Shown in pieces: positions 28,301-46,934 of a stretch of 64,000 bases of DNA. The stretch comes from Phycisphaerae bacterium (GTDB taxonomy: Bacteria > Planctomycetota > Phycisphaerae > Sedimentisphaerales > Anaerobacaceae). The stretch is from NCBI GenBank assembly GCA_012744475.1, contig JAAYBV010000097.1, positions 62,001 to 126,000 of the forward strand, read 5' to 3'. The first letter of the stretch is position 1, and each line of letters starts with the position of its first letter. The translations under genes were made by a program, and so were the position numbers. The notes under the pieces were generated by a model that did no database searches, had not been told where the DNA came from, and worked only from the letters and a program-made list of their open reading frames with translations.

Positions 28301-28908
28301 GTCAGATCGCCGTCGACATCGTGCTCCTGCCCGAAGCGAGGATCGCCCGACTGGCGGTCGAGACCAACCGCAAACTGACCGGCAGCAGTTGTCGCGAGAT
28401 CGTTCTGGACGAGACCACGTGCCTGCCGCACATTTCCCTGGCGATGGGCTGCATCGAATCCGAGCAGGTCGATGCGATCGGAAAGATGCTCGGTGCGGTC
28501 GCGAAGGCCTGCCCTGTCGGCAAGCTTGCGATCACAGGAGTCGTGACGGTGCTGAACACACGGAACGAGCCGAACTCGCTCTTTGCCGTGGCCAAGACCG
28601 AGGCCCTTCAGACGCTGCACGAGCAGATCGTGGAAACGATAGAGCCCCATGCGAGCCACGACGTGACGGCCGAGATGATCTGCGGCGATGAAGAGGTGGC
28701 GCCGAGCACACTGGCGTGGATTCGGGACTTTCGCCGCAAGGCGGCGTTCGCCGTGTTCTTCCCGCACATCACGATCGGGTATGGCGTGGTGACCGAGCCG
28801 ATGACGTTCCCCATGGATTTCGTCGCCCCGCAGTTGGCCCTCTGCCACCTGGGCAACCACTGCACGTGCCGCAAGGTGCTCGCTTCGGCGTCAACGATCG
28901 ATCAGTGA
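28297..28908 (+). CDS. 2H phosphoesterase-superfamily protein (2'-5' RNA ligase-like)
   Basis: 203 residues. Two H-x-[ST]-hydrophobic motifs are present, LPHISLAMG near residue 45 and FPHITIGYG near residue 155, which form the paired active-site histidines of 2H enzymes. Such enzymes act on 2',3'-cyclic or 2'-5' phosphodiesters. It is translationally coupled to the PutP-type symporter (4-nt overlap). Its 3' end overlaps the 3' end of gspF by 7 bp on the opposite strand. Confidence 0.75.
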   Translation: MSQIAVDIVLLPEARIARLAVETNRKLTGSSCREIVLDETTCLPHISLAMGCIESEQVDAIGKMLGAVAKACPVGKLAITGVVTVLNTRNEPNSLFAVAKTEALQTLHEQIVETIEPHASHDVTAEMICGDEEVAPSTLAWIRDFRRKAAFAVFFPHITIGYGVVTEPMTFPMDFVAPQLALCHLGNHCTCRKVLASASTIDQ

Positions 28909-30092: not shown

Positions 30093-30118
30093 AGGTCTGC
30101 TTCTTCACACAATCGACG

Positions 30119-31855: not shown

Positions 31856-31886
31856 ACCCCGCCTCTCCACATCGTGTCCGGCACGC

Positions 31887-32222
31887 TCAGGCAAAGCTCC
31901 GGACCGCTTCGGCCAGTTCCGCGTGACGATCGAATTCGGTCTGAAGACCGGTAATCTCGAGAATCTTCTCGAGGGTTTCGTCCAGCCCGGCCAGCTTGAG
32001 CTGCGTGCGGTTCTGACGGCAATACTGCCGCACCCACAGCAGCAGTTCCAGCCCCTGGCTGTCCACCCCGTTAACGTTGCTCATATCGACCACGATCCGC
32101 TTGCGTCCCGCAGCCGTCGTCTCCGTCACCGTATCCTTCAGTGATGCCGCGATGTCCCCATCGAGTTCGCCCTGCAACTCGACGACCGTGACATCGTTGT
32201 AGTTCTGCCTGTTGATCTTCAT
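31887..32222 (-). CDS. STAS-domain protein, anti-sigma factor antagonist-like
   Basis: 111 residues, a single STAS domain. VTVVELQGELDGDIAASLKD is the N-terminal strand-helix, and NVNGVDSQGLELLLWV holds the conserved D-S phosphoacceptor region of SpoIIAA-like antagonists. The start overlaps the HD-GYP stop (ATGA), so the two are coupled. A partner anti-sigma kinase is not identified. Being inside the secretion locus, it may transmit signals to that system or to stress sigma factors. Confidence 0.88.
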   Translation of the reverse strand: MKINRQNYNDVTVVELQGELDGDIAASLKDTVTETTAAGRKRIVVDMSNVNGVDSQGLELLLWVRQYCRQNRTQLKLAGLDETLEKILEITGLQTEFDRHAELAEAVRSFA

Positions 32223-33928
32223 CGCAACAACGTCCCTATCGCCGTGGTCCCATATTCGCAGACATGTCCCCCCTCGTACATCGAGGGGCCGTTCCCCTGG
32301 ATCAGGTCCCAGAGATGGTAGATGTCGCTCTCGAGGAAGATGGTCCCGATCTTCTCATCGAACTGCGTTCCCAGCCCCTTGCGGATTTCCTCCAACGCGC
32401 AGTCCACGGTCATGGCGTCGCGATAGACCCGTTTGGACGTCATCGCGTCGAAGCTGTCGGCCAGGCCGAGAATCTTGGCCATGAGCGAAATCTGGTCGCC
32501 GACGAGACCGTCGGGATACCCCTTTCCATCCACGCGTTCATGGTGCTGAAGCACGCCGGGAACAATGTCGCGCATTTGCTTGATGCCGCGGAGAATTCCC
32601 GCCCCGATCGATGGATGACGCTGGATGATCTCGCGCTCCTCGGGCGTGAGCCTGCCGTTCTTGCGGAGCACGTTCTCGTCCACGCCGATCTTGCCGATGT
32701 CGTGCAGAAGGCCCGCCAGGTAAATTCGATGGATCTGCTCGTCGTCGAGCGGCTCCCGTTCCGCGACGCGTTCCGCCAGCCATCTCGAAATAATGGCCAC
32801 CCGCTCGGAGTGGCCACGGGTGTATTGGTCCTTGGCGTCGATGCTGTCCGTCAGGGCCTTCAAGGAACCGAGGAAGAGTTCCTTGAGATCATTGAAGAGA
32901 CGTCCGTTTTCGATGAACACGGCGCAGCCGCTCGCAACGGAGCCGAAGAGCTTCATGTCCGTGCTGTCGAAATCGGGCTTGTCGATGCGGTTGACCGCGA
33001 CCATGTATCCGATGATCGTCACAGCATTCTCGTCGCGCGCCGCCCGTCGCGAATGCTGCGGCTCCTTGGCACACAGCGGCACGGCGATGACGTTGCGAAT
33101 GCTCGCCGGCCACTCATACCGGAACGGCGTATCGACATCGCTGTCCAGCAGCGCCTCCTGCCCGCGGCGGATCTCTTCCGCCAGACGACTGTGCAGCAAG
33201 GCCGTCATGCGCGCGTCCAGATCGATCAGACCCGATCCGGCCGCCACCATGAATCGTTTTTCCCCCTCCACGATCCGCTCCAACACGACGGCGATCCCTT
33301 CAACGAGAACGATGTCCGTCAGGCTGTCACAGGCCAACTGGAGGAACGTACTGTCAGATTCGGTGAGCTTCATGTGCGTGCTGATCTTGTGCAGCAGCAC
33401 CAGCTCCTCGTACACCTGGGCCAGCTCCGTGCCCATCTTTTCCATCTGTTCGTCGCTGCGCGCGGACATCTGAAGATTCTGCGCCGCCAGCCGCAGCATC
33501 TCGCCGAGGCATGCCGCCGATATGGACGAATCCCCGGTTCTGCCCTCTTGCGCCGGGTCAGACGGCCGCTCGACGCAAGCCTCCGGGCCCTGATCGGCCA
33601 CGATCACGCCAGCCAGCCGGTGTTCAGCGGTTGCCACACGAGGCAAACACAACGGGACCGCCAGCAGCGTGCCCGCGTCGCAGAACTGCCACACGCGGCC
33701 CTCGCAGCTCTCGGCCGTGTGCCTGCCCAAAGCTTGCGAGACGGCGCGGGCCGCCTCCACAATCGCCTCCATGTCGCTGTCGAACTGCCCGGCGTTGTGC
33801 AGAACCACAATGCCGCCGCTGGGGTCTACCACGGCGAGATTCACGCCAAACCGCCCGATACGCTCCCCGAATCGCTCCAGATCGCGTCGTTGCTGGCAGG
33901 TCAGTCCTGGTGTCGTCGTATTCGGCAT
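32219..33928 (-). CDS. GAF-HD-GYP protein, probable c-di-GMP phosphodiesterase
   Basis: 569 residues. An N-terminal GAF-like region (about 15-120) and a coiled linker precede a second GAF (about 185-345). The HD-GYP domain (about 355-525) has LHDIGKIGVDENVL, HPSIGAGIL and HHERVDGKGYPDGL, with the metal and GYP residues intact. It should hydrolyse c-di-GMP to pGpG/GMP in response to ligand or protein signals. No membrane segment is seen. It is coupled to the STAS gene by a 4-nt overlap and lies 52 bp from the response regulator. Confidence 0.92.
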   Translation of the reverse strand: MPNTTTPGLTCQQRRDLERFGERIGRFGVNLAVVDPSGGIVVLHNAGQFDSDMEAIVEAARAVSQALGRHTAESCEGRVWQFCDAGTLLAVPLCLPRVATAEHRLAGVIVADQGPEACVERPSDPAQEGRTGDSSISAACLGEMLRLAAQNLQMSARSDEQMEKMGTELAQVYEELVLLHKISTHMKLTESDSTFLQLACDSLTDIVLVEGIAVVLERIVEGEKRFMVAAGSGLIDLDARMTALLHSRLAEEIRRGQEALLDSDVDTPFRYEWPASIRNVIAVPLCAKEPQHSRRAARDENAVTIIGYMVAVNRIDKPDFDSTDMKLFGSVASGCAVFIENGRLFNDLKELFLGSLKALTDSIDAKDQYTRGHSERVAIISRWLAERVAEREPLDDEQIHRIYLAGLLHDIGKIGVDENVLRKNGRLTPEEREIIQRHPSIGAGILRGIKQMRDIVPGVLQHHERVDGKGYPDGLVGDQISLMAKILGLADSFDAMTSKRVYRDAMTVDCALEEIRKGLGTQFDEKIGTIFLESDIYHLWDLIQGNGPSMYEGGHVCEYGTTAIGTLLR

Positions 33929-33980
33929 GGCCCTCTCAAGATCCTTCAGAACAGGCAGTGCTCCGGCAATCGCCTTCGGG

Positions 33981-34379
33981 TCAGTTCTTCACCGCCACCG
34001 CACGCTGATAGAGTATGTCCTCGATGGTCTTGAGCAACTCCTTGGGGCTGAACGGTTTGCTCAGGCACTCCTGCACGCCGAGCGAGTCCTGCATCTCCTG
34101 CGTGATCGCAAAGCTGCGCGCCGTCAGCAGGATCGTCGGAATGTGCATGGTGGCCTCGTTCTTCCGCAGCTTCTCGATCAGCTCGATTCCCGTGACGAAC
34201 GGCATCTGATAATCGGTCACGACGATGTCGGGGTGCTCGCTGCACGCGAGTTCATACGCCTCGGCGCCGTTGTTGGCCGCAATCACCTCGTACCCGTTGT
34301 TGCGCAACTTGATCGCGACGACGTGAATAATGTGAATCTCATCATCCGCAATCAGCACCTTCTTGCCTGTCATCTTCAT
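33981..34379 (-). CDS. single-domain response regulator
   Basis: 132 residues, only a receiver domain. KVLIADDEIHII carries the acidic pair, VVTDYQMPF the phosphoacceptor Asp, ILLTARSF the Thr/Ser switch and CLSKPFSPKEL the conserved Lys. There is no output domain, so it probably acts by protein contact, like CheY, possibly on the HD-GYP or pilus proteins. ATG 34379 or 34373 are both possible after GGAG; upstream TTG 34388 is less likely. The histidine kinase gene ends 56 bp upstream. Confidence 0.9.
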   Translation of the reverse strand: MKMTGKKVLIADDEIHIIHVVAIKLRNNGYEVIAANNGAEAYELACSEHPDIVVTDYQMPFVTGIELIEKLRKNEATMHIPTILLTARSFAITQEMQDSLGVQECLSKPFSPKELLKTIEDILYQRAVAVKN

Positions 34380-34435
34380 CCACTCCAAAACTGGGTTTCA
34401 GGAATCCCCCCCGTGAAGAGGCGCGAACTCCCCCG

Positions 34436-35884
34436 TTATCGGGCCGTGCCCGCCAGCTCGGCCGCCGCCAGAGGCAGTTCGAATCCGAACGTGCTTCCGA
34501 CGCCCACCTCGCTCGTAACGAACACACGACCGTCGTGTACTTTCTCGACGATTTGCTTGACGAGGTTCAGGCCAAGACCGGTCCCGCTGGCCTGCTTGTT
34601 GTTGGCGCGCACGCGATAGAACTTGTCGAACACGTGAGCGACCTCGTCGGCGGGAATGCCGACGCCGGTATCCGTAACGGTGACGCGGACCACCTCCTCC
34701 GTCTCGTTCACCTCCGTTTTGATCCGCACGGTCCCGCCGGGCGGAGTGTACTTGACCGCGTTGCTCAGCAGGTTCACGATCACCTGTGAGATCATGTCCT
34801 TGTCGGCCAGAACCTGGTCGTATACGATAGGGTTCTGTCCAACGACCGTGATCTTCTTCTCTTCCGCGAATCCCCGGATCATCTGCATCTGTTGTTCGAT
34901 CAGAATCGTCAGACTGACCGGCTCCTTCTGGACCTTGATCAGTCCCGACTCGATTCGTGACACGTTGAGAATGTCCTCGATCAGGCGGTTGAGCCGCTGC
35001 GCCTGAGTCTGAATGATCTCGTAGAATTCCTTGCGCGTCTGCTCGTCGTCCGCCTCTCCGTCGGCCAGCATCTCGGAGTAGGCCGTGATGGATGCCAGCG
35101 GCGTCTTCAACTCATGCGAGACGTGACTGACGAAATCGTTCTTCATCTGCGAGACTTCCTTCTCTCGCGTAATGTCATGCAACACCGCGACCACACCCGA
35201 GACCTGGTTTCGCTCGAAGACACAGGAGACAATCGTGTCGAACGTATGCGGACCCTCGGGCCGGGCGAACTGCATCTCTCGGCGCGTCGCCTCCGTGGCG
35301 CTCTGCCGGCTGGACTGAATCAACTGGACGAAATCCTCGTGTCCTGGGTTGATGCTCTCGGCGAGCGGTTTGTGGCGCGCCTGCTCCGGGTCAAACCCGA
35401 AGAGCCGGGCGGCGGCCGCGTTCGCCATCAGCAGCCGATCCGCCTCGTCCACCACCACCACGGCGTCGCGCAGGCTGTAGATAATGGCCTCGGTGTGCTG
35501 CTTCTGTCGATCGGCAAGCTGCGATCGAATGCGGAGATCCGTAAGCTCGGTCTCCAGCGTGCGAAGAGCCTCCTGCCCTTCCCGGAGGCGTGTCTGAACG
35601 GCCTGGGCCGCCCGCTCAATCGCCTGGAGATCCATCAGGCCGGCCGGGTCGCCGGAAAGCTGCCGGGCTATGGACGCGACCGTCCCGGCCAGCCGATGAT
35701 AGGCCAGACCCAGGAAGATCACGCCCACAGCCCCGATGCAGCAGGCAATAAGACGCCACGCAACGAGATGGTTGCGCCACCCTACTCCGATGCCAGAATG
35801 GAAAAGCCCAGTCAGGGCCGCGATGCACAGCGAGGCCATCACCATGGCAACCGCGGCCCAGACTAAGCGTCTTTGACGTCTCAC
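34436..35884 (-). CDS. membrane histidine kinase with PAS domain
   Basis: 482 residues. Two membrane helices (about 8-30 and 43-64) flank a very short outer loop. A coiled region, a PAS domain (about 130-245) and then HisKA with FVSHVSHELKTPLASI (phosphorylated His) follow. The HATPase domain shows N-box VIVNLLSNAVKYTP, DTGVGIP and GTGLGLNLV. The start is GTG 35884 with GGAGGAG 5 nt upstream. The small periplasmic region suggests sensing within the membrane or by PAS. Its likely partner is the adjacent receiver protein. Confidence 0.93.
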   Translation of the reverse strand: MRRQRRLVWAAVAMVMASLCIAALTGLFHSGIGVGWRNHLVAWRLIACCIGAVGVIFLGLAYHRLAGTVASIARQLSGDPAGLMDLQAIERAAQAVQTRLREGQEALRTLETELTDLRIRSQLADRQKQHTEAIIYSLRDAVVVVDEADRLLMANAAAARLFGFDPEQARHKPLAESINPGHEDFVQLIQSSRQSATEATRREMQFARPEGPHTFDTIVSCVFERNQVSGVVAVLHDITREKEVSQMKNDFVSHVSHELKTPLASITAYSEMLADGEADDEQTRKEFYEIIQTQAQRLNRLIEDILNVSRIESGLIKVQKEPVSLTILIEQQMQMIRGFAEEKKITVVGQNPIVYDQVLADKDMISQVIVNLLSNAVKYTPPGGTVRIKTEVNETEEVVRVTVTDTGVGIPADEVAHVFDKFYRVRANNKQASGTGLGLNLVKQIVEKVHDGRVFVTSEVGVGSTFGFELPLAAAELAGTAR

Positions 35885-35942
35885 AACAACTCCTCCGAAC
35901 CCGTGAACTACGGGTGTAACGTCCGATCATGGAAGCACGCGT

Positions 35943-37709
35943 TTAGCGTCTCTTCCAGTTCTTGGCCTCTTGCTGATCGATCGCCTGTTGAACGATACTG
36001 TCGATCCGCTCGAGTTCATCGGGATCGGTTTCGACGATAATCCGTTCCCTCAGCCGCAGCGCCTCCAGATACGACGGACGCATCATCAGCGCGACCTTGA
36101 CGTTGTACACGGCGCTGTCGACATCGCCTTCGAGATAGTATTTGGCCGCTCGCGCGTAGGCGTCCTCCGCCATGCGCGAACGATCGAGGGCCTGCAGGTT
36201 GTGCCTGGCGCCGTCCATCTTCAGCCGGATGTCGTCGGCGCGATCTGCGCCACCCGTCTCGGAAGGCTCTTCGATGATATGAGGCGTCAACATGATGATC
36301 ACCTCTTCGCGCCCAACTGTGTCCGTGGTACCGCGGAACGCGACGCCGATCAACGGCAGGTTGCCCAGCAGCGGCACCTGGTTTCGTGACGTATTCGTAT
36401 AGTCACGGAACAGGCCCCCAAGAATCACCGTCTCACCATCCTTGACGATCACATTGGTCCGGAGCTCCGTCGTCTGCTCTTGGGGAAGAGAGTTCAGAAT
36501 CTGTCCGTCACTGTCTTTCGGATAGATGTCCATCCGAATATAACCGTCGCTGCCGATGTACGGCCGGAAGATCAACTGCGTACCGGTATTCAAGAAGGCC
36601 ACCGACTGCGTGGTCGTGGTCTGGGTCTGGGTCGTCTGGTCCAGGTACCCCAGCTTCTTACCGATCAGCACAGAGCCTTCCTGCTTGTTGACCGCCAGGA
36701 TCTTCGGGTTGGCCAGCAGCGTCGTGTCCGTGACTTCTTCCAGAGCCGTGATAATGGCCTGGACGTTGTCAGACGAGAACCCTATCCTCAAGCCCGTTGC
36801 GCCACCCTCACTGGCCTTCGCCAGGAAGCCGGATGTCTGCCAAGGTGTGCCCTGGCCCCCGACGATACTGGCGGGATAGCCGGTAATGGCGACGCCGCTG
36901 AGGAGGTTCCAGTCCACGCCAAACTGCGTGGTATCTTTCAGCCGTGCAGCGAGGATCGTCGCTTCGACCAGCACCTGCTTGGGCCGAACGTCGATCTCCC
37001 GAATGACTGCTTCGGCCCGCTCGATGTTCTCCGGGAAGTCGAAGACCACGAGCATGTCATTGGCGGCCATTTTGTCGCCACCGCCACCACCGCTGAGAGA
37101 TCCACCCCCTGCGCCTGCGCTGCTGGCGGAGGAGATCTTCTCTTCGGCGGCCGTCGTCTTGGTGATCTGCGCGCTGGCGCTGAGCACCGGGCGGACCAGC
37201 TTTTCCGCCTCTTCGGCGGTCGTGTAGTACAGCGTGATCACCTTGTGGACCATCCGTTCGGGGTCTTCCTTGATCTTCTTGTGCTCGTCCTTGGTGCGAA
37301 TGTGAATCAGGTTGCCCTCCTGCACCGGGACGAACTTGTCGCCCAGCATGGCCGCCAGCGCCTGTTCAAACGTCACATCGCGCAGTTCCGGACAATTCAG
37401 GGGACCACTGACACTGGCCGAAGGAACAATGTTCTTGCGGCACAGCTTGGCCAGCAGACGCAGCCCATCCCGCACATCGCCGTCCTTCTTGAAGGCGATG
37501 AACTTGATGATGACTCCATCACCGGAGAAGTCCACCTGGGCCTGATCGGGTTCAACGGCCAGGGTGTCCATCGCCGCCTCAGAAGTCGCTGCCGGATCGC
37601 TCTCGGCAGCCGTCACCGGTCCGGCCAACAGAGCCAGCACCGCCATAACGCAAAGCCATCGGCCCCACCGGGCCTCCAAAGGTTTCACTGTTGTTCTGTC
37701 GTAGTACAT
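35943..37709 (-). CDS. gspD: secretin (GspD/PilQ family) outer-membrane channel
   Basis: 588 residues. A signal peptide (LCVMAVLALLAGPVTA, about 20-35) and an N-domain with the LRDVTFEQALAAML motif are followed by a Gly/Ser-rich low-complexity loop (about 200-220) and the secretin core. The core contains VLVEATILAARLKDTTQFGV and the C-terminal VPLLGNLPLIGVAFRGT with VIIMLTPHIIEEP. The last 100 residues are helical and TPR-like (YYLEGDVDSAVYNVKVALMM), a C-terminal extension beyond the secretin. AAGGAG lies 8 nt before the ATG. This is the exit pore for the locus. Confidence 0.93.
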   Translation of the reverse strand: MYYDRTTVKPLEARWGRWLCVMAVLALLAGPVTAAESDPAATSEAAMDTLAVEPDQAQVDFSGDGVIIKFIAFKKDGDVRDGLRLLAKLCRKNIVPSASVSGPLNCPELRDVTFEQALAAMLGDKFVPVQEGNLIHIRTKDEHKKIKEDPERMVHKVITLYYTTAEEAEKLVRPVLSASAQITKTTAAEEKISSASSAGAGGGSLSGGGGGDKMAANDMLVVFDFPENIERAEAVIREIDVRPKQVLVEATILAARLKDTTQFGVDWNLLSGVAITGYPASIVGGQGTPWQTSGFLAKASEGGATGLRIGFSSDNVQAIITALEEVTDTTLLANPKILAVNKQEGSVLIGKKLGYLDQTTQTQTTTTQSVAFLNTGTQLIFRPYIGSDGYIRMDIYPKDSDGQILNSLPQEQTTELRTNVIVKDGETVILGGLFRDYTNTSRNQVPLLGNLPLIGVAFRGTTDTVGREEVIIMLTPHIIEEPSETGGADRADDIRLKMDGARHNLQALDRSRMAEDAYARAAKYYLEGDVDSAVYNVKVALMMRPSYLEALRLRERIIVETDPDELERIDSIVQQAIDQQEAKNWKRR

Positions 37710-37778
37710 AGCGTTACTCCTTTTCTTTCACATCCTGCTTGACCGTACTGATTTCATTATCGTTCTAAGACAAAATCG

Positions 37779-38387
37779 TCACTTTCTTACGTCGGCGGGC
37801 GACGACAGCTTCAACGTCCACTGTCGGTCGCGGCATGTCACAAGCACGGCATCTTCTTTGATCTGTACTACTTCGAATACGTAGGCGTCGGAACCGTCCG
37901 AGAGAGCAATGGTGTCCCCGAGGCGCACCAGTCGATCGTTGACGAACGCCTGCGGGTCCGCGCTCCACAGCACGGCCTCCAGCCTGAGACTCTTGGCCAG
38001 TTTGTCGATCACGTCATTGGTTCTCTTCGATGCAACCGTTTGTACTTCTGTTTCAGAACCCGTGCTCTGTGGTTTGGACACACTGGAGAAACGGCTCCAG
38101 TCTTGCGTCGTGAAGAAATCTCTGTGGATGCGGTCGTTCCGCCCGGGCTCCAGCGGCAAATCGACGAGACGCACCGTGGGCGGTTGTTTCTGCGGTTCAT
38201 CGGTCGGCGGCGTCCCATCCGGCCTGGCTTCCGCCGCCCGGGGTTTCTGGCCGGTGAACACGCGGATCCACATCACGGCCATCACGATCACCAGGGCGAT
38301 CGCAAAGCCCGTCCTCCTGCCACCTCGGATCAGGTGGCTGGCCATCTGAGAAACCGAGCCCAACGTGTTGGTCGCATTACGCTTCAT
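37779..38387 (-). CDS. PilP/GspB-like inner-membrane linker protein
   Basis: 202 residues. A short cytoplasmic tail and one membrane helix (GFAIALVIVMAVMWIRVF) precede a Pro-rich disordered stretch. A C-terminal small beta domain follows (LEAVLWSADPQAFVNDRLVR, LGDTI, YVFEVVQIKEDAVLV), typical of GspB/GspC HR or PilP domains that bind the secretin. It overlaps the PilO-like gene by 11 nt and precedes the secretin gene, the position PilP occupies in pilMNOPQ operons. Sequence identity to either family looks weak; assignment is mainly by topology and position. Confidence 0.65.
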   Translation of the reverse strand: MKRNATNTLGSVSQMASHLIRGGRRTGFAIALVIVMAVMWIRVFTGQKPRAAEARPDGTPPTDEPQKQPPTVRLVDLPLEPGRNDRIHRDFFTTQDWSRFSSVSKPQSTGSETEVQTVASKRTNDVIDKLAKSLRLEAVLWSADPQAFVNDRLVRLGDTIALSDGSDAYVFEVVQIKEDAVLVTCRDRQWTLKLSSPADVRK

Positions 38388-38991
38388 CGTTCACGGCATC
38401 CGTTGTGTTCTGGCTCGCGGACAGATTTGCGTTCTGCGTCTTCCGCGTCCGATAGAAGATGACCGCGTCGGCGTCCATGGTCACACTGCCGGTGAAGGCC
38501 TTCGCATTGACCAACGTGGTCTTCTCAATTCGCACAAGCCGACCGAGATTCTGAAGGTCCTGAAAGAACCCGAAGATCCCATTCAGGTTGCCCACACACT
38601 TCATGTGGACGGGAATGCAGATCAGGTCATCGGAGATTCGTTCCTGACCGAGAACCACATCCTGGTCCGACAGGTTGTTCTTGGTCATGATCTGGGCGAT
38701 CTGCCCCAGAAACTGCCCCAAGGCGCTTTCGTAGGGAATCCAGTCTTCGTAGTTCCGGACGTACCGATCGGTCTCTCGGAGGCGTTCGGTCAGGGATGGC
38801 AGCACGTCGCTGTGCGCCTCGGCGGCAGCGATCAACTGCGTCCGGCGCGTCTTCGCTTCGACCAGAGATCGGAGTCTTTCACGCGACGGCAGATATCCGT
38901 ACAGCACAAAGTCCGCCAGGAACAGGCCGCCAATGGCGAAGACCCACAACTGCTGCCGGCTCAGCCAGGAATTGGATCGTTTCTCACTCAT
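38377..38991 (-). CDS. pilO: PilO-like inner-membrane assembly protein
   Basis: 204 residues from ATG 38991, which overlaps the PilN stop (ATGA). One N-terminal membrane helix (LWVFAIGGLFLADFVLYGYL), a coiled-coil segment and a C-terminal ferredoxin-like domain (CIPVHMKCVGNLNGIFGFFQ, NLGRLVRIEKTTLV) correspond to PilO/GspM. It would dimerise with PilN in the alignment subcomplex linking PilM to PilP and the secretin. Confidence 0.82.
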   Translation of the reverse strand: MSEKRSNSWLSRQQLWVFAIGGLFLADFVLYGYLPSRERLRSLVEAKTRRTQLIAAAEAHSDVLPSLTERLRETDRYVRNYEDWIPYESALGQFLGQIAQIMTKNNLSDQDVVLGQERISDDLICIPVHMKCVGNLNGIFGFFQDLQNLGRLVRIEKTTLVNAKAFTGSVTMDADAVIFYRTRKTQNANLSASQNTTDAVNDEA

Positions 38992-39713
38992 CGCTTGCCC
39001 TGTTCCTCGTAGTTGGCCAGGTAGCACGTGATCTCAAACTCCGTGACATTGACCGATCGCGCATCGGTCCGCTGGGGCTCGCTCTCATTCGCGTGCGAGG
39101 CCGCAGACACAGCGGCGCCGATCTGAATCGTGTTGTCGCGATACAGCGGGTGAACCTGCCGGAAATAGGGGGAATCGTCCAGCCGATGGACCAGGGCCGC
39201 GACCTCGGCCGAATCGGCCGCGATTCCCGCCAGGGCCACCCGAAACCGGACCTTGCCCAGAGAGGCTGCTTTTGCAGGCGCACGAGAGGCGCTGGCGCTG
39301 CGCACCGCGGCCGCGTCGCGTTCCGGCGTCTTTTCCTGGGCGGCCAAGGGCTCGGATATGAACTCCAGGCGGCTTAGAAGCACGCGGTCACTGATGATGT
39401 AGCTGATCTCCGCCAGCACCGCCGCCACGTCGATGCGCGCATCGACCTGCTCGACCGAAGCCACCTTGGCCCGGCGCGCTTCCAGTTGCTCGGTGACGGC
39501 GCCATACTCACGCAGCATGCCCTCGGCCCAGAACCGTCGGTCCTCGAGCCTGGCCAGGTCCGCGTTGGCTCTCGAAATCCTGTGCGTCGCGATCGCGTTG
39601 TATGTCACCAGGACCAGAAACAAGACCATCAGCGCGGCATACTGCCGGCGCATATGAAGCCGACGGCGCCTGCCTTCTTTGTGCCATTCTGGAAGAAAGT
39701 CGATCTCTTTCAC
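38988..39713 (-). CDS. pilN: PilN-like inner-membrane assembly protein
   Basis: 241 residues from GTG 39713 (TAGTG overlap with the PilM stop). The N-terminus VKEIDFLPEWHKEG matches the PilN I-N-L-L-P-type motif that binds PilM. A membrane helix (ALMVLFLVLVTYNAIA), a coiled coil and a C-terminal ferredoxin-like domain interrupted by a low-complexity insert (about 130-150) follow. It couples PilM in the cytoplasm to PilO in the periplasm. Confidence 0.82.
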   Translation of the reverse strand: MKEIDFLPEWHKEGRRRRLHMRRQYAALMVLFLVLVTYNAIATHRISRANADLARLEDRRFWAEGMLREYGAVTEQLEARRAKVASVEQVDARIDVAAVLAEISYIISDRVLLSRLEFISEPLAAQEKTPERDAAAVRSASASRAPAKAASLGKVRFRVALAGIAADSAEVAALVHRLDDSPYFRQVHPLYRDNTIQIGAAVSAASHANESEPQRTDARSVNVTEFEITCYLANYEEQGKR

Positions 39714-40861
39714 TATGGTGCACCTTCCAGTATGGATTCCAGTCCGACATCGGATTTCACCAGGGCCACCGTGGAGGCACCCCATCCTTTAAGGCTCAGT
39801 CCGACCGCCAGCGAGAAGTCCGCTGCCGGATGGAGGTCCTCCGTATTGGCCCCAATCGACGTGAGATCGAACCCGCGCAGCGGTTCGGCGATATCCGTCT
39901 CGATGGCCAAGTGATGTCTCATTACCGTGAGCAAGGCCTCCTCGTGGACACCACCTCCGGCCAGCAGAGCCCGCTCGACTCGTTTGCCTCGGAACGTCAC
40001 CGTGTAGTACCGAAGGCACAGCGAGATCTCTGCGGCCAGTTGCTCGGCCGTGCCGTGCAGCACGTCGGCAACGAGACGACGCGTCGCCGCATCGACCGAA
40101 TCGCTGGACGTCATCTTGCGGCGCAGAGACTCGGCGTCGGCCACAGAGATCGACAGCCGGGCCGCAATGTCTTCCGCGAACCGCGAGACCCCGAACGCCA
40201 TCTGTTTGACGAAGCAGATCTCACCGGCCCGCCCCAGGACGACGGTGGTGTACCGATGGCCGACGTCCAGAAACATGATCGTTCGTTCCTTGTCTTCCTG
40301 GCGCCGCAGCACCCGCTCGAAACACCGGAACAGGGCACAGGGCGATGCGTCGATGCCCACCGGCTGCAGGCCCACCTCTTCCACAAGGGCGATGTGCTCT
40401 CGAATCACCTCGTCGTCACCGGCGAACAGGATGTATTCGTTCTTGAGTTCATCCCCCTGCCGAACGCTGCCGGCCAGCACGTAGCTTACCGAGTCGATCT
40501 TCGGGTTCAGTGCGAATCGATGGGCGGCTTCTCTGCGAAGCGTCTGCTCCACGTCATCGCCCGGCGTCTCCGCCAGTCTCACGGATGTGATCTTCAGATC
40601 GTCCGCCGGCAGAGCCGTGACCACGTCGGGTCCCCTGAAGGCCCCCTCGGCCAGCAGGCGCCGGACGGCCGGAGCCACCCGACGTCGCCACGAGTCATCG
40701 TCGCTCGCCTCATTCGAACCGACGACGGCCCTTTCGGCCGCGAGCACCCGGACCCCGTCCTCGGATACCGCCAACTGGATCATCTTGACAACGTTGTGTC
40801 CGATATCCAGTCCGATGGGCAGGATCTTCTCTCTTCGATTCATCCAATGAGACAGTCGCAT
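39713..40861 (-). CDS. pilM: PilM-like actin-fold assembly protein
   Basis: 382 residues from ATG 40861; a TTG two codons upstream is the alternative. The actin-like ATP-binding segments are PIGLDIGHNVVKMIQLAV, the phosphate-2 strand TIMFLDVGHRYTTVVLG and the adenosine motif ALLAGGGVHEEAL. VVTALPADDLKITSVRL is typical of PilM. It is the cytoplasmic ring protein of type IV pilus-like systems and forms a tightly overlapping unit with pilN and pilO. Confidence 0.88.
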   Translation of the reverse strand: MRLSHWMNRREKILPIGLDIGHNVVKMIQLAVSEDGVRVLAAERAVVGSNEASDDDSWRRRVAPAVRRLLAEGAFRGPDVVTALPADDLKITSVRLAETPGDDVEQTLRREAAHRFALNPKIDSVSYVLAGSVRQGDELKNEYILFAGDDEVIREHIALVEEVGLQPVGIDASPCALFRCFERVLRRQEDKERTIMFLDVGHRYTTVVLGRAGEICFVKQMAFGVSRFAEDIAARLSISVADAESLRRKMTSSDSVDAATRRLVADVLHGTAEQLAAEISLCLRYYTVTFRGKRVERALLAGGGVHEEALLTVMRHHLAIETDIAEPLRGFDLTSIGANTEDLHPAADFSLAVGLSLKGWGASTVALVKSDVGLESILEGAP

Positions 40862-40871
40862 ATCCAAACAC

Positions 40872-41396
40872 TCACTCAGAAACGGAGATGAACCCCGTCA
40901 CAGGCTCGACCGTCACCGTCCGCGTGAAATCCCCGGCCTTCAGCACCACGGTTCCACCATTGTCCGGGCTGCCGAGCGAATCGAACTCCACGAAATCGTT
41001 GTTGGAAGCACCGAACGCGGCACTTTCGACCTTCACCTGGTCCAGTCTTCCATCCGTGGTGAAATTGACGATGTACCCATTCTCCTTCTGGGTCACCGGG
41101 TGCTTGATCACCGCACCGCTCTGGTCCTGAATCTCATACCGTTCGTTCGCCGGATCGAAGACAACCTTGTGCTTCTGGCCCCGGCTGATCGCCATGCTCC
41201 TGGCGTATTCGAGATCGGCTGCCACGATGCCGCCGGCGGCGCGCATCTGCGAACTCGCGGCCGAGGACATCATCGGCACCGCGATCGCCGCGGAGATCGC
41301 AAGAATCACGATGACGATCAACAGCTCGATCAGCGTGAATCCGGCACGAGACCTCACGGTCTGCCCAACAGATTGTGCTGTCGTATTCCTACACAT
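40872..41396 (-). CDS. minor pseudopilin, GspH/FimT-like
   Basis: 174 residues. The prepilin signal is a 17-residue basic leader followed by [20 protein letters not shown], with the conserved Gly at -1 and Glu at +5 for prepilin peptidase. The body (LEYARSMAISRGQKHKVVFD) resembles GspH/FimT minor pilins. ATG 41396 is preceded by GGAGGCAAGG. It is 10 bp upstream of pilM, so it is part of the same transcript. Confidence 0.87.
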   Translation of the reverse strand: MCRNTTAQSVGQTVRSRAGFTLIELLIVIVILAISAAIAVPMMSSAASSQMRAAGGIVAADLEYARSMAISRGQKHKVVFDPANERYEIQDQSGAVIKHPVTQKENGYIVNFTTDGRLDQVKVESAAFGASNNDFVEFDSLGSPDNGGTVVLKAGDFTRTVTVEPVTGFISVSE

Positions 41397-41772
41397 GGTC
41401 AACCTTGCCTCCGTTTCTCTTTCGGCCCGTCGGGAGCCGGGCTTAACCTGCGACTGGACCGACCTGCCGAGACACTCGGCGTTTGACATGGCCGGCGCCC
41501 AAGCGCTGCCGCGACCGCCGTCTGCCGGCAGACCAAGAGACCCCCGACAGACCCTACAGGCGTCAGGAACGCGACGCGACGCGGCCAACGTCCCGAAATA
41601 TGCCTCCTGGATCGCCATTCGTTCTTGTGTCAAACACGTGGCCTCGGCGGCGCCTTTGACGCACGACCATCTCCCGCGGGCGGCGGCGAGTCGCGTTTTT
41701 TTCCTCCGCGACGCGTTGGGACCGATAAACCGCTCTGTGTTTTGGGACCTGGCCATCTGCTCCGCCACCTCA
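41397..41772. other. non-coding stretch between pseudopilin genes
   Basis: About 376 bp. The GspH frame stays open upstream but has no starts with ribosome-binding sites and no domain, so it is read as non-coding. On the minus strand TTTGACAC occurs near 41629 without a matching -10. The segment before the GspH start has several GC-rich stems (CGCCGAG...CTCGGC, GCCCGGC...GACGGGC) and could be a structured leader, but no known riboswitch consensus was recognised. Confidence 0.4.
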
Positions 41773-43479
41773 CTATTCCACGCGATGAATGCTCTTGAAG
41801 AACGCGCCCCCCGCCGGACTCCAGTCCACTCGCGACCCGGAAGCCCACGTCGTGATCGCCGCCTTCGTCGGCGACGCAACCACGTTCAACGCCGAGCCGC
41901 TCCCGGCAAAGGTCCAGTGTCCGATCAGTGAATCGCTCGGCAGGGCGAAGATCTCAGAGGCGAGCAACGCGCGCTTATAGACCCGCACTTCGTCCAGCAG
42001 GCCTTTGTACACGTAGCTGGCCGAACCGGTGCGATCGGCGCCGATGTTCAAGTGCCCGTCTCCACTTCCGGGCATGTTCGAAAAAGTGCCCGTGGCGCGC
42101 TCCGTCCAGTCCAGATATGACTTCATCGTGGTTCCCTGGCGGACCACCACCACATGGTGCCAAATCCCGTCCGTCAGCTCCGTGCGCAGAATCCCTGTGG
42201 ACCAGCGGACCGAGTCATGGCCGACGATCAATTCCGTCGCGGTGCTGTCGAACTGGAGCACCCAGTGGTTGATGCTTCCGGCCGGATCGGTCTTGCACAC
42301 GATTGCCGCCCAGGGGTTCTGCGTGACGGCAGGCGCGAGCAGAACGCTCAAGGTGTAGTCACCGGTGACCTGCAGACTGTCCGCATCGTCCAGCGTCTGC
42401 ATATATTGGCTGACCCCGTCGAGCGTCAGAACGCCCGTGGCCGGCCACGTCGGAATATTCCGAAGGATGGCGTCGTTGGGAATCCACGTGGAATCGATGG
42501 CGGCCTCCGCAATCTCGCCGTTGGCAAAAAGGCCGCCGACGATCTCGGCGTCCGAGCCGTGTCCCACGAGAACACTGCCGTCCACGGCGACGAGGCCCTC
42601 GATCTGGAGGTCGGTCGCGCCGTGAAGAAAGAGGTTCCCGGTGACATAGGCCGCCGGGAGGTTCTTGGCGGCCGTGAGCCTTGCCCCAACGCCCTTGATG
42701 ACAAGATCGCCTTCGACCAGCAACATGCCGTTGATGACGAGCGCCCCGTCCAAGGTAAGATTTCCGCTACACCGCCAGATCTTTGGCGAGCTGTAGCTGC
42801 CGCCGCTGACCGTGCCGGGTCCGATGGAGGAGATCACGTAGTCCGGATGGCTGTAACCCGCCGTCACGGGGGGCCACGTCATGGCCAAAGTCCCGGCGTC
42901 CTTGTACGTTCCGACGATGCCTCCGCTCAGACCGCCGGCGAAGAGGTCGCCGTCTACGGCGCCGGCAACCCCCAGATTGGTGAACGTCCCGGCCGCATAC
43001 GCGTCCCCGACCACACTCCAGGCCGCGCGATAAGACAGATCGCTGCCACACCACAGGCCGATAGCGGGGTCCAGACGAACGACCGCCGCAAAACTGCTAT
43101 TGCCCACCTGTTCCGCCTGGCGGAGCCGATAGGCCTCGCACGTGACATCGAAAACGCACTCATCGCTCGGATCGGCGGTAACGGTCACGTCGTAGAAGTC
43201 GTTCGTGTTGGGGTCCAGTTGGATCGATGTGTCTCCGGTCCAGTACGCACCCCCGGCGTCCTGCGGATTCAGAAGAAGACCACGGGCGTGTTCCAGGGCC
43301 GAGACCGCCATCTGGTCCATCTGGACGCGGACAGCCAGGCTCCGGCCCGACGCCAGCTCCACGTCACATCGGGCGATGAACCCCAGCGACAACAGGGTGA
43401 TCGCCATGATGATGCCCAGGACCAGCAGCAGCGCCACGCCTCTGCGACAAGGCCGAGTTGTCCGGATTCTCCTATTCAT
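41773..43479 (-). CDS. large minor pseudopilin (PilX/GspK-like) with C-terminal LamG domain
   Basis: 568 residues. The N-terminus RGVALLLVLGIIMAITLLSL is a PilX/GspK-type class III-like signal helix. The middle region (about 120-350) is repetitive, beta-rich and resembles a DUF-type polymer-forming or beta-helix segment (LTLDGALVINGMLLVEGDLV). Residues about 380-545 form a LamG/concanavalin-like domain: YTLSVLLAPAV, GIWHHVVVVRQGTTMKSYLD and GLLDEVRVYKRALLASEI. It overlaps the preceding gene by 8 nt. It is likely located at the pilus tip or pseudopilus, where the LamG domain could bind glycans. Confidence 0.82.
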   Translation of the reverse strand: MNRRIRTTRPCRRGVALLLVLGIIMAITLLSLGFIARCDVELASGRSLAVRVQMDQMAVSALEHARGLLLNPQDAGGAYWTGDTSIQLDPNTNDFYDVTVTADPSDECVFDVTCEAYRLRQAEQVGNSSFAAVVRLDPAIGLWCGSDLSYRAAWSVVGDAYAAGTFTNLGVAGAVDGDLFAGGLSGGIVGTYKDAGTLAMTWPPVTAGYSHPDYVISSIGPGTVSGGSYSSPKIWRCSGNLTLDGALVINGMLLVEGDLVIKGVGARLTAAKNLPAAYVTGNLFLHGATDLQIEGLVAVDGSVLVGHGSDAEIVGGLFANGEIAEAAIDSTWIPNDAILRNIPTWPATGVLTLDGVSQYMQTLDDADSLQVTGDYTLSVLLAPAVTQNPWAAIVCKTDPAGSINHWVLQFDSTATELIVGHDSVRWSTGILRTELTDGIWHHVVVVRQGTTMKSYLDWTERATGTFSNMPGSGDGHLNIGADRTGSASYVYKGLLDEVRVYKRALLASEIFALPSDSLIGHWTFAGSGSALNVVASPTKAAITTWASGSRVDWSPAGGAFFKSIHRVE

Positions 43480-44104
43480 CGTCGTCTCCCGTCACGAGAC
43501 CGTCGCCGGTAGCGTTCAGCAGGTGGCCGGCCCAGGCCAGCAGTGTCACATCCACTTCGTGCGTGCGGGCGACATGGTCCTGCGTCAGCTCAAAGGAGAT
43601 CGTCACGCGCCGGGTCGATGGAGCAGCGGGGTCGCACGCCAATTGCACATTGCCGCACGCGGGAAGAAGCGATACGGAGGCAACCGCATTCCCGCTCACC
43701 AGGCTGGCCTGGCTCACGGAAAGGACGCCCGAACTGAGCGTTACCGACGGATCGCTGACGGAGTAGAATCGCACCAGGCGAAGTGTGTCGTGCGTCGCGG
43801 TGCAGTCGAGGAAGGCCAGTTCATTCACGTTGATGCCGGCGTCCCCGTTGTAGTCCGCCAGCCAGATCGCCAGCTCGGTGTCCGACGCGGTCAGAATCAT
43901 CCGGCAGTTTCGAATCACTTCGACGATGCGCACCATGCCCAAACGAAGCCGGGCCTGGGATGACGCGGTGTCGCTGCCAGTCGTCGCCGCACTGTTCATC
44001 GCGAACGCCAGCGTCGCGACCGCCGACAGAAGGATCCCCGTGATGACCAGGGTCACCAGCAGCTCGACGAGCGTGAACGCCTTGATGTTTCGGCTTCGGT
44101 TCAT
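43472..44104 (-). CDS. minor pseudopilin, PilW/GspJ-like
   Basis: 210 residues from ATG 44104. The prepilin motif is IKAFTLVELLVTLVITGILL: Ala rather than Gly precedes Phe, which peptidases tolerate, and Glu+5 is present. The body contains SQARLRLGMVRIVEVIRNC, typical of PilW/GspJ, and a dockerin-like or EF-hand-like DYNGDAGINVNELAFLD loop. It overlaps the LamG pseudopilin by 8 nt. Confidence 0.82.
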   Translation of the reverse strand: MNRSRNIKAFTLVELLVTLVITGILLSAVATLAFAMNSAATTGSDTASSQARLRLGMVRIVEVIRNCRMILTASDTELAIWLADYNGDAGINVNELAFLDCTATHDTLRLVRFYSVSDPSVTLSSGVLSVSQASLVSGNAVASVSLLPACGNVQLACDPAAPSTRRVTISFELTQDHVARTHEVDVTLLAWAGHLLNATGDGLVTGDDDE

Positions 44105-44249
44105 TCGATCTTGTCCGGCGCCTGCCGTTCTGATCTCGGACGCCTTGGCCGCTCTACCGGGCCTCGACATGGCGGCAGGACGCGGATGTCAGTCCGGTCC
44201 TCCCGTGAATCGCCGCCCGCAATCGGATAGGGGTCCGCCTCAATTCAAA

Positions 44250-44708
44250 TCACTGGACTGCCTTACTGATCAGACGATAGATCGTCGCTACGTTCCGCCC
44301 CTGATGGGCCACTCGCACCATGGCGAGGACAAAGCCCGGCTGAGCGTCGTCGCTCTGCGGGGGCACATGCACGTATTCGCACCTGGCCTCGCGGCTGTAA
44401 TCGGCGTACATCGAATCGGTATAGGGGGTCCCACTGGCGTCCTGCACCTGCCCCTGGGATTCGATGCGGGTCCCATAGATATCGACGATGTCGTCGAACG
44501 GGGTGCTCACAATCCGCTCGATCAGGTCGTTGGCCAGCCTCGTGCCGAGCGTGCGGCGCACGCCTTCTGCCTGGACGGTCGCGCCGCCTGCAAACGGCAA
44601 CAGGACGCCGGCGGCGGCCATCCCCAACAGCACCGTCGCGAGCGTCGCCTCGGCCAGCGTGAAACCCCGCCGGACCGCGATGCCTCGTCGTTTGGGATCA
44701 ATAGGCAT
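44250..44708 (-). CDS. minor pseudopilin, PilV/GspI-like
   Basis: 152 residues. The signal is RRGFTLAEATLATVLLGMAA with Gly-1; the Glu after Leu-Ala is at +5. The TLGTRLANDLIERIVSTPFD segment is typical of PilV/GspI, where the helix after the signal carries A-x-x-L-x-E. It overlaps the preceding GspG-like gene by 11 nt. A 145-bp gap separates it from the PilW-like gene. Confidence 0.8.
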   Translation of the reverse strand: MPIDPKRRGIAVRRGFTLAEATLATVLLGMAAAGVLLPFAGGATVQAEGVRRTLGTRLANDLIERIVSTPFDDIVDIYGTRIESQGQVQDASGTPYTDSMYADYSREARCEYVHVPPQSDDAQPGFVLAMVRVAHQGRNVATIYRLISKAVQ

Positions 44709-45201
44709 AGTACGCTCTTCCCGCGTCGTCCGTCCCGGAGTTGCCGGGTCGGATTTCGCCCGTCCGCGCCCTGTAGATCCAGCCGTGACCATTATCGGGC
44801 GCCGCCGGAAAGTCCTCCCCGTCAGCCAGCATCCGGACCGTGGCCCGTCCGTTGCACGGATTCCTCGGCATATTCGACAGGTAAGGTCCGTATTTGTAGC
44901 CAGCGGTTCCCCGGGGGGCCGTCTGGCCCTCGGCGTCGCTGGCGAGCAGCGCCTGGGCAATGAAGACGTCGGCATCGACCGGCGAACCGCGACCGGCGGT
45001 ATACCCCGGCCCGACCTCCCCATGCTGGCTGGTGTACACCAGCACGAACCGCCGCAACACGTCGAGGTTGGCTTTCAGCACGCCGGCGCGAGCCGTGGTT
45101 CCGCTGTTCGCGACAGACGGAATGACCACGGCCGCCAGAATGCCCAGCAGAACCACCACAACCAGGATTTCCACCAGCGTAAAGGCCTTTGCTCTACACA
45201 T
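44698..45201 (-). CDS. pseudopilin, GspG-like
   Basis: 167 residues. The short 6-residue leader MCRAKA is followed by FTLVEILVVVVLLGILAAVV, with Ala at -1 and Glu+5. The GspG-like region is GVLKANLDVLRRFVLVYTSQ, with the C-terminal GHGWIYRARTGEIRPG ending typical of the family. ATG 45201 has AAGGAG 5 nt upstream. It is the third of the pseudopilins in transcription order. Confidence 0.85.
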   Translation of the reverse strand: MCRAKAFTLVEILVVVVLLGILAAVVIPSVANSGTTARAGVLKANLDVLRRFVLVYTSQHGEVGPGYTAGRGSPVDADVFIAQALLASDAEGQTAPRGTAGYKYGPYLSNMPRNPCNGRATVRMLADGEDFPAAPDNGHGWIYRARTGEIRPGNSGTDDAGRAYYAY

Positions 45202-45292
45202 GGTTCTCCTTCTGATTCGTACGGCACCCGCCGTATATGGGCAAACCGAACGGACGCGAGGTCCTTCGGATGCTTTTCTACGTTTCGGCCCA

Positions 45293-45901
45293 TCACAATC
45301 CGGCATGATGGACGCTGTCATTGGCAAAAATCTCGCCGGTCCCGGGCACATAAGCCCAGCCGGCGTTTCCCGGAACGGGAACGTCGTTCCGGTCACGCAC
45401 CACAACGATGGCCCCGCTGCCGTTGAACGGATTGGCGGGAACCTCTTCGAGATACGGACCATAGCGGAACACCTCGTCCCGCCGGGTCCTCGGCCGGTCT
45501 GGCTTGACGTTCCCGTCGGCGTCGGTGCAGTAGAGCATCTGATCGAATCGGCCATCGGCCGCGATCGTGCCATCGACCACCCGCATCGGGGGATTGTCGC
45601 TGTGCTGCACCTTGTACAGTTCGATCTGCGAGCGGAGCAACTGAAGGTTGTTGCACAGCTCGTCCATCCGGTTCTCCGCGATCCCCGCGCCGCTGAACCG
45701 GGGCGCTACAACGGCCGCCACCACCGCCAGCACCATCACCACGATCGTCGCCTGGATCAGCGCGAAAGCCCTTCGGCGAGCCGTCCCATCCCTCCTCGGG
45801 CGACGGGCAGAAGGTCGCGTCGCCGTGCCGGTCGAGACGGCGCCGACAGCCGGCGCGACGTTGATCGCCTGAGCCGCGGCAAATCCATTGTGTTTCGTCA
45901 T
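45293..45901 (-). CDS. atypical pseudopilin with long leader and no Glu+5
   Basis: 202 residues; ATG 45901 has GAGGAGAGGGA just upstream. A 50-residue basic, Ala/Arg-rich leader precedes RAFALIQATIVVMVLAVVAA. The processing motif is degenerate: Ala instead of Gly-1, ALIQ instead of TLIE, so Glu+5 is replaced by Gln. The body is clearly GspG-like (ENRMDELCNNLQLLRSQIEL, GWAYVPGTGEIF). Glu+5 is needed for methylation and assembly in studied pilins, so this member may be unprocessed or act as an assembly regulator. Confidence 0.75.
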   Translation of the reverse strand: MTKHNGFAAAQAINVAPAVGAVSTGTATRPSARRPRRDGTARRRAFALIQATIVVMVLAVVAAVVAPRFSGAGIAENRMDELCNNLQLLRSQIELYKVQHSDNPPMRVVDGTIAADGRFDQMLYCTDADGNVKPDRPRTRRDEVFRYGPYLEEVPANPFNGSGAIVVVRDRNDVPVPGNAGWAYVPGTGEIFANDSVHHAGL

Positions 45902-45984
45902 TCCCTCTCCTCCATTGGCATTACAGGATGAGCGTTTGCTCATCGCCTCGGCATGAAAACGCCGAGGAACCTCTTCGTCGTGAT

Positions 45985-46025
45985 AAAAAAAGCCGGCCGA
46001 CTCCATGGGAGCGGGCCGGCCGGCT
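45985..46025 (-). terminator. Rho-independent terminator between first and second pseudopilin genes
   Basis: On the minus strand AGCCGGCCG (46025-46017), a 17-nt loop, and CGGCCGGCT (45999-45991) followed by a run of T (45990-45985). It directly follows the stop of the first pseudopilin gene at 46046. It should make the upstream gene more abundant than those that follow. Confidence 0.8.
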
Positions 46026-46045
46026 GTCAGTCTTGCTTTGTGCTA

Positions 46046-46555
46046 TCAGCCCTCTTCTTCTTCAGGAACAAGCGCATCGCCAGCCTTAAGCGACGCCAGC
46101 ACAGCGGCATCATCCTCATCGTCGAGGCACGTGGCGTCCAGATACATGGCGCCGGTGTCCTGATCGTAGATCCAGCCATTGTTGGCCCCCCCGGCCGCCG
46201 CAACGCCTCTCTGGTTGTTCCAGGGATTCACGGGAAGGATCTGCATGTACGGACCATACGGATATACCGCCTTGTCGCGTCCCTCTACTTCGACATATCC
46301 GTCCCCCGAGAGGGCGGCATTCGAACACATCGTCATCGCATCCTCGAAGTCCGCCAGTGTAGGCACATTGTCATTGTGCTGAATCCTGTACAGCTCAATC
46401 TGCGACCGCAGGCTCTGCAAGCTGCTCAGCGAGCTGCTGACCTTCGCCTCGGTGCTGGCCTGGGTGAACTGAGGAACCACGATCGCGGCCAGAATGCCCA
46501 GAATGACCACGACGATCAGGATTTCCACCAACGTAAAGCCTCTGTTTGCCTTCAT
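46046..46555 (-). CDS. gspG: major pseudopilin, GspG-like
   Basis: 169 residues. The ideal prepilin signal KANRGFTLVEILIVVVILGI has Gly-1 and Glu+5. The body is of GspG type: SSLSSLQSLRSQIELYRIQH, then YMQILPVNPWNN and a GWIYDQDTGAMYLDA ending, and finally an acidic tail. ATG 46555 follows GAGGAGG by 8 nt. It is the first pilin gene of the locus, has its own terminator and a long structured leader, and is the probable major subunit. Confidence 0.92.
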   Translation of the reverse strand: MKANRGFTLVEILIVVVILGILAAIVVPQFTQASTEAKVSSSLSSLQSLRSQIELYRIQHNDNVPTLADFEDAMTMCSNAALSGDGYVEVEGRDKAVYPYGPYMQILPVNPWNNQRGVAAAGGANNGWIYDQDTGAMYLDATCLDDEDDAAVLASLKAGDALVPEEEEG

Positions 46556-46688
46556 GTCATTGTCCTCCTCGTTGTGCGTAAGAAAAAGAAACATGGAAAA
46601 CGATTGGTTGTTTCGACGTTGTTCGTCGCTTGTTCCGTGAACCTTATCGACAGGATCGCAAGGTCACTTGATTCACCGCTCTTCTCTT

Positions 46689-46827
46689 GAGCCGCAGACC
46701 CTTTCAAAAAGCATGACCGTGTGAAAGCCGCCTTCCTCTACGTCCAACATGAGTTTCGTTCCCTTATGGATTCCGGAGCCTTTAACTTTGCCGCCCAAAC
46801 CAAGTCGGGCAGCGTTATCTGCGGCTC
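46689..46827 (-). ncRNA. candidate structured RNA / riboswitch-like leader of the pseudopilin operon
   Basis: A 139-nt minus-strand segment closed by a perfect 10-bp stem: GAGCCGCAGA (46827-46818) pairs with TCTGCGGCTC (46698-46689). Inside are a 7-bp hairpin GCTGCCC/GGGCGGC (46813-46807 with 46796-46790, 10-nt loop) and a 5-bp stem CTTTC/GAAAG (46727-46723 with 46705-46701). The start codon of the major pseudopilin lies 134 nt downstream. One minus-strand frame is open through it but lacks a start with a ribosome-binding site. No known riboswitch consensus, including c-di-GMP-I, was matched. Confidence 0.5.
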
Positions 46828-46934
46828 CTCTCAGTCCATCCAAACCATAGAAAACGCGGTACGCGCGCCAAAACGCGGAGAAGAGAAAAATCGCATAAAA
46901 AAGGAATGGGGGATCGGGGGATGAATCGGGGCGT

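Follow-up and report, generated by a model that had tools for sequence, protein, structure and literature searches.

The gene of a GspG-like major pseudopilin in the 64,000-nucleotide stretch of Phycisphaerae DNA analysed here (hereafter the window) is preceded by what is almost certainly a structured cis-regulatory leader. Comparative analysis of this region makes it likely that the leader is a cis-acting regulatory RNA of the downstream pseudopilin/T2SS locus and that it represents a new, lineage-specific RNA family, i.e., a new and apparently undescribed family of a known kind of RNA, the cis-regulatory leader. An earlier note on this DNA had singled out the region on account of a perfect 10-bp stem and had proposed a new regulatory RNA; that proposal has held up in part, in that the pilin leader is structured, conserved, without a match in Rfam and likely regulatory.

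Genomic context and anatomy of the leader

Since the pilin is encoded on the minus strand (46046..46555), the relevant RNA is that of the minus strand, and the conserved RNA lies on this strand; its position upstream of the pseudopilin gene is that given in the earlier note. The pseudopilin, the first gene after the leader, matches PF07963 and, below its cut-off, TIGR01710 (E 4.1e-16). Judged by gene content, it opens an ~18-kb same-strand T2SS/T4P locus (28902..46555, minus) with genes for pseudopilins, GspK/H-like proteins, PilM, PilN, PilO, a secretin, a histidine kinase, an HD domain protein, a T2SSE protein with an MshEN domain and a T2SSF protein. The T2SSE ATPase with its MshEN domain and the HD_5 domain protein are encoded at 30119-31894 and 32219-33928 of the window (minus); MshEN is a c-di-GMP-binding domain, and the presence of these two proteins in the locus means that c-di-GMP may act here at the protein level.

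The leader occupies the intergenic gap between tsaE (stop at 46935; PF02367) and the pilin start (46555). A promoter-like sequence of the form TTTGGC-N17-TATGGT directly precedes the conserved RNA, with the -35-like TTTGGC at 46867..46872 and the -10-like TATGGT at 46844..46849 (both minus). Nearly all of the 39 listed leaders carry TTTGGCA or TTTTGCA ~17 nt before the -10 element, TATNNT is conserved across the family, and the family-wide form of the promoter reads TTTGGCA...TATATTTT. The RNA is predicted to start at ~46841-46837 (minus), which would give a leader of ~285 nt from the predicted start to the pilin ATG (about 46841 down to 46556, minus).

At the predicted RNA start lies a near-invariant 5' block, GGACUGAG-AGGAGCCGCAGAUAACGC (46812..46837, minus), found in 12/12 leaders of the close clade (see below) and contained within covariance models R1 and R2; across these leaders it reads GGACUGAG-GGRGCCGCAGAUAACGC. 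Within it, GGAGCC (46823..46828, minus) pairs with GGCUCC (46775..46780, minus) to form helix P1, and GCUGCCC-loop-GGGCGGC (46790..46813, minus) forms the P2 hairpin, the latter corresponding to the 7-bp helix of the earlier note. Further downstream are a GAUGUA/GAAGUA box (here UUGGACGUAG; 46738..46748, minus), conserved in both clades of the family, and, at 46689..46708 (minus), a box of the GGAGG type that reads UGAAAGG in the window and precedes GUCUGCGGCUC. This box, as GAAAGG or GGAGG, together with the GUCUGCGGCUC after it corresponds to the UUGGAGG-AUUUACGGC of other genera. The 3' element, comprising UCAAGU and the hairpin GACCUUGCGA-UCCUG-UCGAUAAGGUU (46639..46671, minus), sits ~85 nt before the start codon and is the local version of a family-wide GUUAAGU...UCGAUURGGUCGAUA element. 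Inspection of the sequence additionally indicates a Shine-Dalgarno-like sequence of the pilin at 46563..46570 (minus). Presumably, GGUUAAGUCC resembles a 16S rRNA stretch, a resemblance too short for use.

Homologues and covariation in the close clade

In a DNA search of 61 genomes, four congeners and members of two further genera in the family proved to have similar leaders, all of them preceding the orthologous pseudopilin. Model R1, a covariance model that describes the 5' domain and was built from seven seed sequences, matched 12 of the 89 family genomes, in three genera and in single copy in each; all 12 matches lie 263-314 nt ahead of the pilin start codon, and five are outside the seed (E 4e-15 to 1e-11; the E-values given here come from a shortened calibration, and the genomes are metagenome-assembled). 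A strict pattern, run on named genomes, likewise found ten loci, each before the pilin, in Phycisphaerae/Sedimentisphaerales or in metagenome-assembled genomes that bear the broad label Planctomycetota. Nothing more was found when the order, class and phylum were sampled, apart from one phylum match (E 0.009), which is G+C-rich, partial and without the invariant AGAUAAC, and was taken as chance. A match on a viral contig also proved to be a chance similarity in unrelated sequence. A conserved dispersed RNA, which the earlier note had entertained, is excluded for the close clade, where the leader occurs once in each genome and invariably ahead of the pilin; similarly, a dispersed repeat was rejected with only one copy present in the leader's own genome. 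A coding region, the contrary reading that the earlier note had tied to codon-level conservation of the minus-strand frame, was also rejected: the leader is non-coding, with stops in all frames of the 12 close leaders and with lengths that are out of phase.

The covariation score for the whole structure is 0.206, as against 0.141 +/- 0.017 in shuffled controls, a level reached by 0/500 shuffles, albeit an optimistic figure because the related genomes are non-independent. Seven pairs are changed on both sides, and slid controls pair far less. P1 is kept in 12/12 leaders, with 98.6% of cells paired and one pair seen as A-U, G-U and G-C, and P2 has changes on both sides in 5/8 pairs; compensatory or consistent changes are present in P1, P2 and the 3' hairpin. 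Changes in the helices in excess of both the shuffled and the slid controls point to a conserved structured RNA. The covariation sought in the earlier note is thus found in the helices of the leader but not in the 10-bp stem that had first drawn attention to it.

That stem is perfect in the window, with GAGCCGCAGA at 46689-46698 (plus) and its exact reverse complement TCTGCGGCTC at 46818-46827, with 119 nt between them; in the RNA, its 5' strand (GAGCCGCAGA; 46818..46827, minus) overlaps the 5' strand of P1 and its 3' strand is UCUGCGGCUC (46689..46698, minus). Taken alone, the inverted repeat is at chance level and has no significance; the 64-kb window holds 33 perfect 10-bp inverted repeats (spacer 3-150 nt), as compared with a mean of 19.7 (13-30) in Markov-1 sequences. 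Fold z-scores are also weak (-1.5 on the minus strand, -1.1 on the plus strand and +0.3 for the whole leader). It is comparative sequence, then, rather than the stem by itself, that establishes the reality of the element. Among the relatives, G000, G004 and G029 have the stem in perfect form and G003 nearly so, whereas it is interrupted in G005 and all but missing from G002, and over 12 relatives 81.5% of its cells pair with no compensatory change. As the 5' strands of P1 and of this stem overlap, the two helices are mutually exclusive. The stem therefore does not stand as the defining closing helix, the role assigned to it in the earlier note, and is better regarded as a state that the leader may adopt as an alternative.

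A divergent clade in the wider family

Pilin orthologues or close homologues are present in 71/89 family genomes, and a divergent form of the leader, missed by the first models, precedes the pilin orthologues of about 20 further genera of the family. The parts of these divergent leaders follow the same order as in the close clade, namely the promoter, a GGAC-ACUUA hairpin, UUUUCGGACGU, GAAGUA, UUUUGGAGGAUUU and GUUAAGU-NNN-GUAUCGAUURGGUCGAUA. A model of the 3' part (R3), trained on 25 divergent leaders only, with the close clade excluded to avoid circularity, detects close-clade leaders at the homologous place (E 1.5e-9, 6.2e-9, 4.4e-7 and weaker). The window's own R3 match (46642-46709) is weak, with an E-value of 0.043 in 124 kb, and is absent from the genome-wide list, so that its homology with the divergent clade runs through intermediates. 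Across 161 genomes of the order, R3 gave 15 non-training matches at E <= 1.5e-4, with 14 of them just upstream of a pilin orthologue and the remaining one (in G082) on another contig where it could not be placed. In 387 genomes of the class, every match at E <= 0.001 falls within the same family.

The 3' hairpin covaries weakly in the divergent clade, and RNAalifold returned no consensus pairs for the 3' element. When a MAFFT alignment of this clade was scanned for covariation, it gave noisy helices only, a consequence of the poor alignment of the hairpin region. At three loci, from some genera, the leader is minimal, with nothing but the GUUAAGU hairpin element directly behind the promoter. 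At six loci, from one group of genera, the leader and the pilin are separated by a small ORF that encodes a prepilin N-terminus only (e.g., MRTEGSGFSLIEILIVLGVLSILAIVFTI).

Competing folds of the 5' arm

When forced into either fold, the window leader is predicted at -63.8 kcal/mol for the local (P1) state and -64.0 kcal/mol for the distal state with the 10-bp stem; the corresponding local/distal values in two other genomes, both of the divergent clade, are -41.5/-39.8 and -51.7/-48.9. Leaders of the divergent clade offer their 5' arm, for example GGACACUUA, two possible partners, a local AAGUGU and a distal AAGUGUCC. An alignment-free swap test, in which the arm of each genome is paired with its own as opposed to other genomes' partners, favoured own partners at the distal site of the divergent clade (15/5000, P about 0.003, optimistic for the same reason as the shuffles) and marginally at the local site (296/5000), while own partners were not favoured at two other sites of this clade. 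On inspection the GUUAAGU box also looked like a promising partner for the 5' arm, but this pairing was set aside as the swap test did not support it (2267/5000).

The evidence bearing on bistability comprises the isoenergetic folds, the support for P1 and a distal pairing which covaries in the divergent clade but not in the close clade. The distal arm of the divergent clade differs in position from the 3' strand of the 10-bp stem, and given these different positions a switching principle common to the two clades can only be inferred. On balance, we give even weight to the leader being a two-state switch.

Such a switch can be envisaged as follows. In the emerging RNA, the 5' arm would first pair locally (P0/P1/P2), and once the downstream segment has been made it could exchange this for a distal partner, which would be that of the 10-bp stem in the window and GGACACUU/AAGUGUCC in other genera. 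A ligand or protein that reads the invariant 5' block or the GUUAAGU-hairpin element might bias the choice of fold, and the choice would in turn set the amount of operon mRNA or pilin, either through transcription elongation along the long locus or through mRNA stability or ribosome loading via the GGAGG box. Given that it can fold in two competing ways, the leader is probably a switch or a docking site that controls the cluster. With respect to the output, no U-tailed terminator was found in the leader, the sole nearby minus-strand site in a simple scan being weak (5 bp, 46854-46866) and upstream of the predicted start; the 3' hairpin is without a U tract, and no conserved structure sequestering the ribosome site was observed in the leader. 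A classic terminator-type riboswitch or attenuator was accordingly rejected, with no U-tailed terminator before the start codon, and elongation, stability or loading becomes more likely than classic terminator attenuation; elongation control in particular is put forward tentatively.

Relationship to known RNAs and alternative explanations

Searches with 4227 Rfam families at gathering and relaxed thresholds found nothing credible in the window, the close loci or the relatives, and at the gathering threshold the window gave only a tRNA elsewhere; the impression in the earlier note that the sequence fits no known consensus is hence borne out. The leader resembles Rfam-type candidate motifs (Weinberg and others) in being a lineage-restricted conserved RNA upstream of a single gene family, but matches none of the 4227 Rfam families. 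A 2010 paper on such motifs (PMC2864571) nowhere mentions pilin or pilus, and no description of the leader was found in the literature searched, which lay outside subscription papers.

Among the explanations that compete with a regulatory switch, a constitutive 5' UTR that stabilises the mRNA or loads ribosomes, with the hairpin protecting the end, GGAGG acting as a standby site and no switching involved, is rather unlikely, though it would account for several features. The hairpin comes directly after the predicted start, GGAGG is strongly over-represented in the divergent clade (29 versus 9.0 expected), no obvious expression platform is present, and major pilins are abundant proteins. However, a hairpin that merely protects the end would not require a 14-nt invariant stretch and several conserved boxes, and the distal pairing covaries. 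It is unlikely, too, that the leader is a processive antitermination element, an RNA that would load factors on RNA polymerase for read-through of the ~18-kb locus. Elements of this type (boxA/NusB-NusE, EAR, put and LoaP-associated hairpins) are comparable in being leader RNAs at the 5' end of a long surface or secretion locus with no local terminator, both of which apply here, although we know of no sequence relation between them and the leader. The attraction of this explanation stems from a sister family of the same order (f7), in which 14/21 leaders of the same pilin have a boxA-like UUCUUUGACAAG close to the predicted start; boxA-type control of non-rRNA genes is known, with the consensus GYTCTTTAANA being gamma-proteobacterial (PMC5725501). 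In the leader's own family, boxA is lacking: the boxA-like (U/C)UCUUUGA(C/A)A is not enriched (4/66 upstream regions), and no antiterminator protein was identified.

Binding of the leader's GGA motifs by CsrA is improbable. The leader shares with CsrA/RsmA-controlled 5' UTRs the presence of several GGA motifs, and CsrA (PF02599) is found in 75/89 family genomes, including its own, but in the close clade GGA shows no enrichment relative to shuffles (71 versus 66.4 expected) and in the divergent clade ANGGA is rarer than expected (14 versus 31.5). We consider a divergent riboswitch for c-di-GMP or a related ligand very improbable. The c-di-GMP-I and c-di-GMP-II riboswitches (GEMM) provide a precedent for a structured 5' leader of a pilin gene, papers linking c-di-GMP riboswitches and type IV pili exist, and the locus encodes the HD_5 domain protein and the MshEN ATPase; yet the leader matches neither model, with no Rfam match even at relaxed E-values, and shows no terminator or ribosome-site sequestration. 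Sensing of c-di-GMP, one of the possibilities raised in the earlier note, accordingly finds no backing as far as the known riboswitch classes are concerned, in spite of these two proteins. Finally, the near-invariance of the 5' block right after the promoter could be that of promoter or operator DNA rather than RNA, an explanation to which we attach very little weight in view of the variable hairpin arms with compensatory changes and the conserved element ~200 nt downstream.

Leaders of sister families and implications

Two sister families present further variations on pilin leaders. At 14 loci of family f7, a different conserved leader is observed upstream of pilin homologues, with a boxA-like UUCUUUGA(C/A)A soon after a similar promoter (14/21) and boxes such as GCGAAGAAC..GUUCUC and AACCGAUACCGAAA; the boxA-like site suggests a Nus-type control of the pilin locus in f7. 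At seven loci of family f2, the leaders seem to keep a related but reduced form of the 3' element (AUUAAGUC...ACCGAUAGC), at some of them together with UUUUCGGAC; R3 gave no significant score on the f2 leaders.

Returning to the cis-acting regulatory leader as the preferred reading, a bolder form of it is possible, if speculative. The leader might be a new riboswitch or RNA-switch class of one Sedimentisphaerales family, in which a ligand or protein toggles the 5' arm between its local and distal partners to control the whole T2SS/pilus locus, and other families of the order might have swapped in other leaders, one of them with a boxA-like site, behind the same kind of promoter.

To our knowledge, few regulatory RNAs have been described from Planctomycetes, and the control of their secretion and pilus machinery is largely unknown. 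A leader kept at one gene in some 20 genera offers a specific RNA as a target for structure probing, mutagenesis and the search for ligands or bound proteins, and the two clades, together with the sister families, supply natural variants for finding its essential parts.
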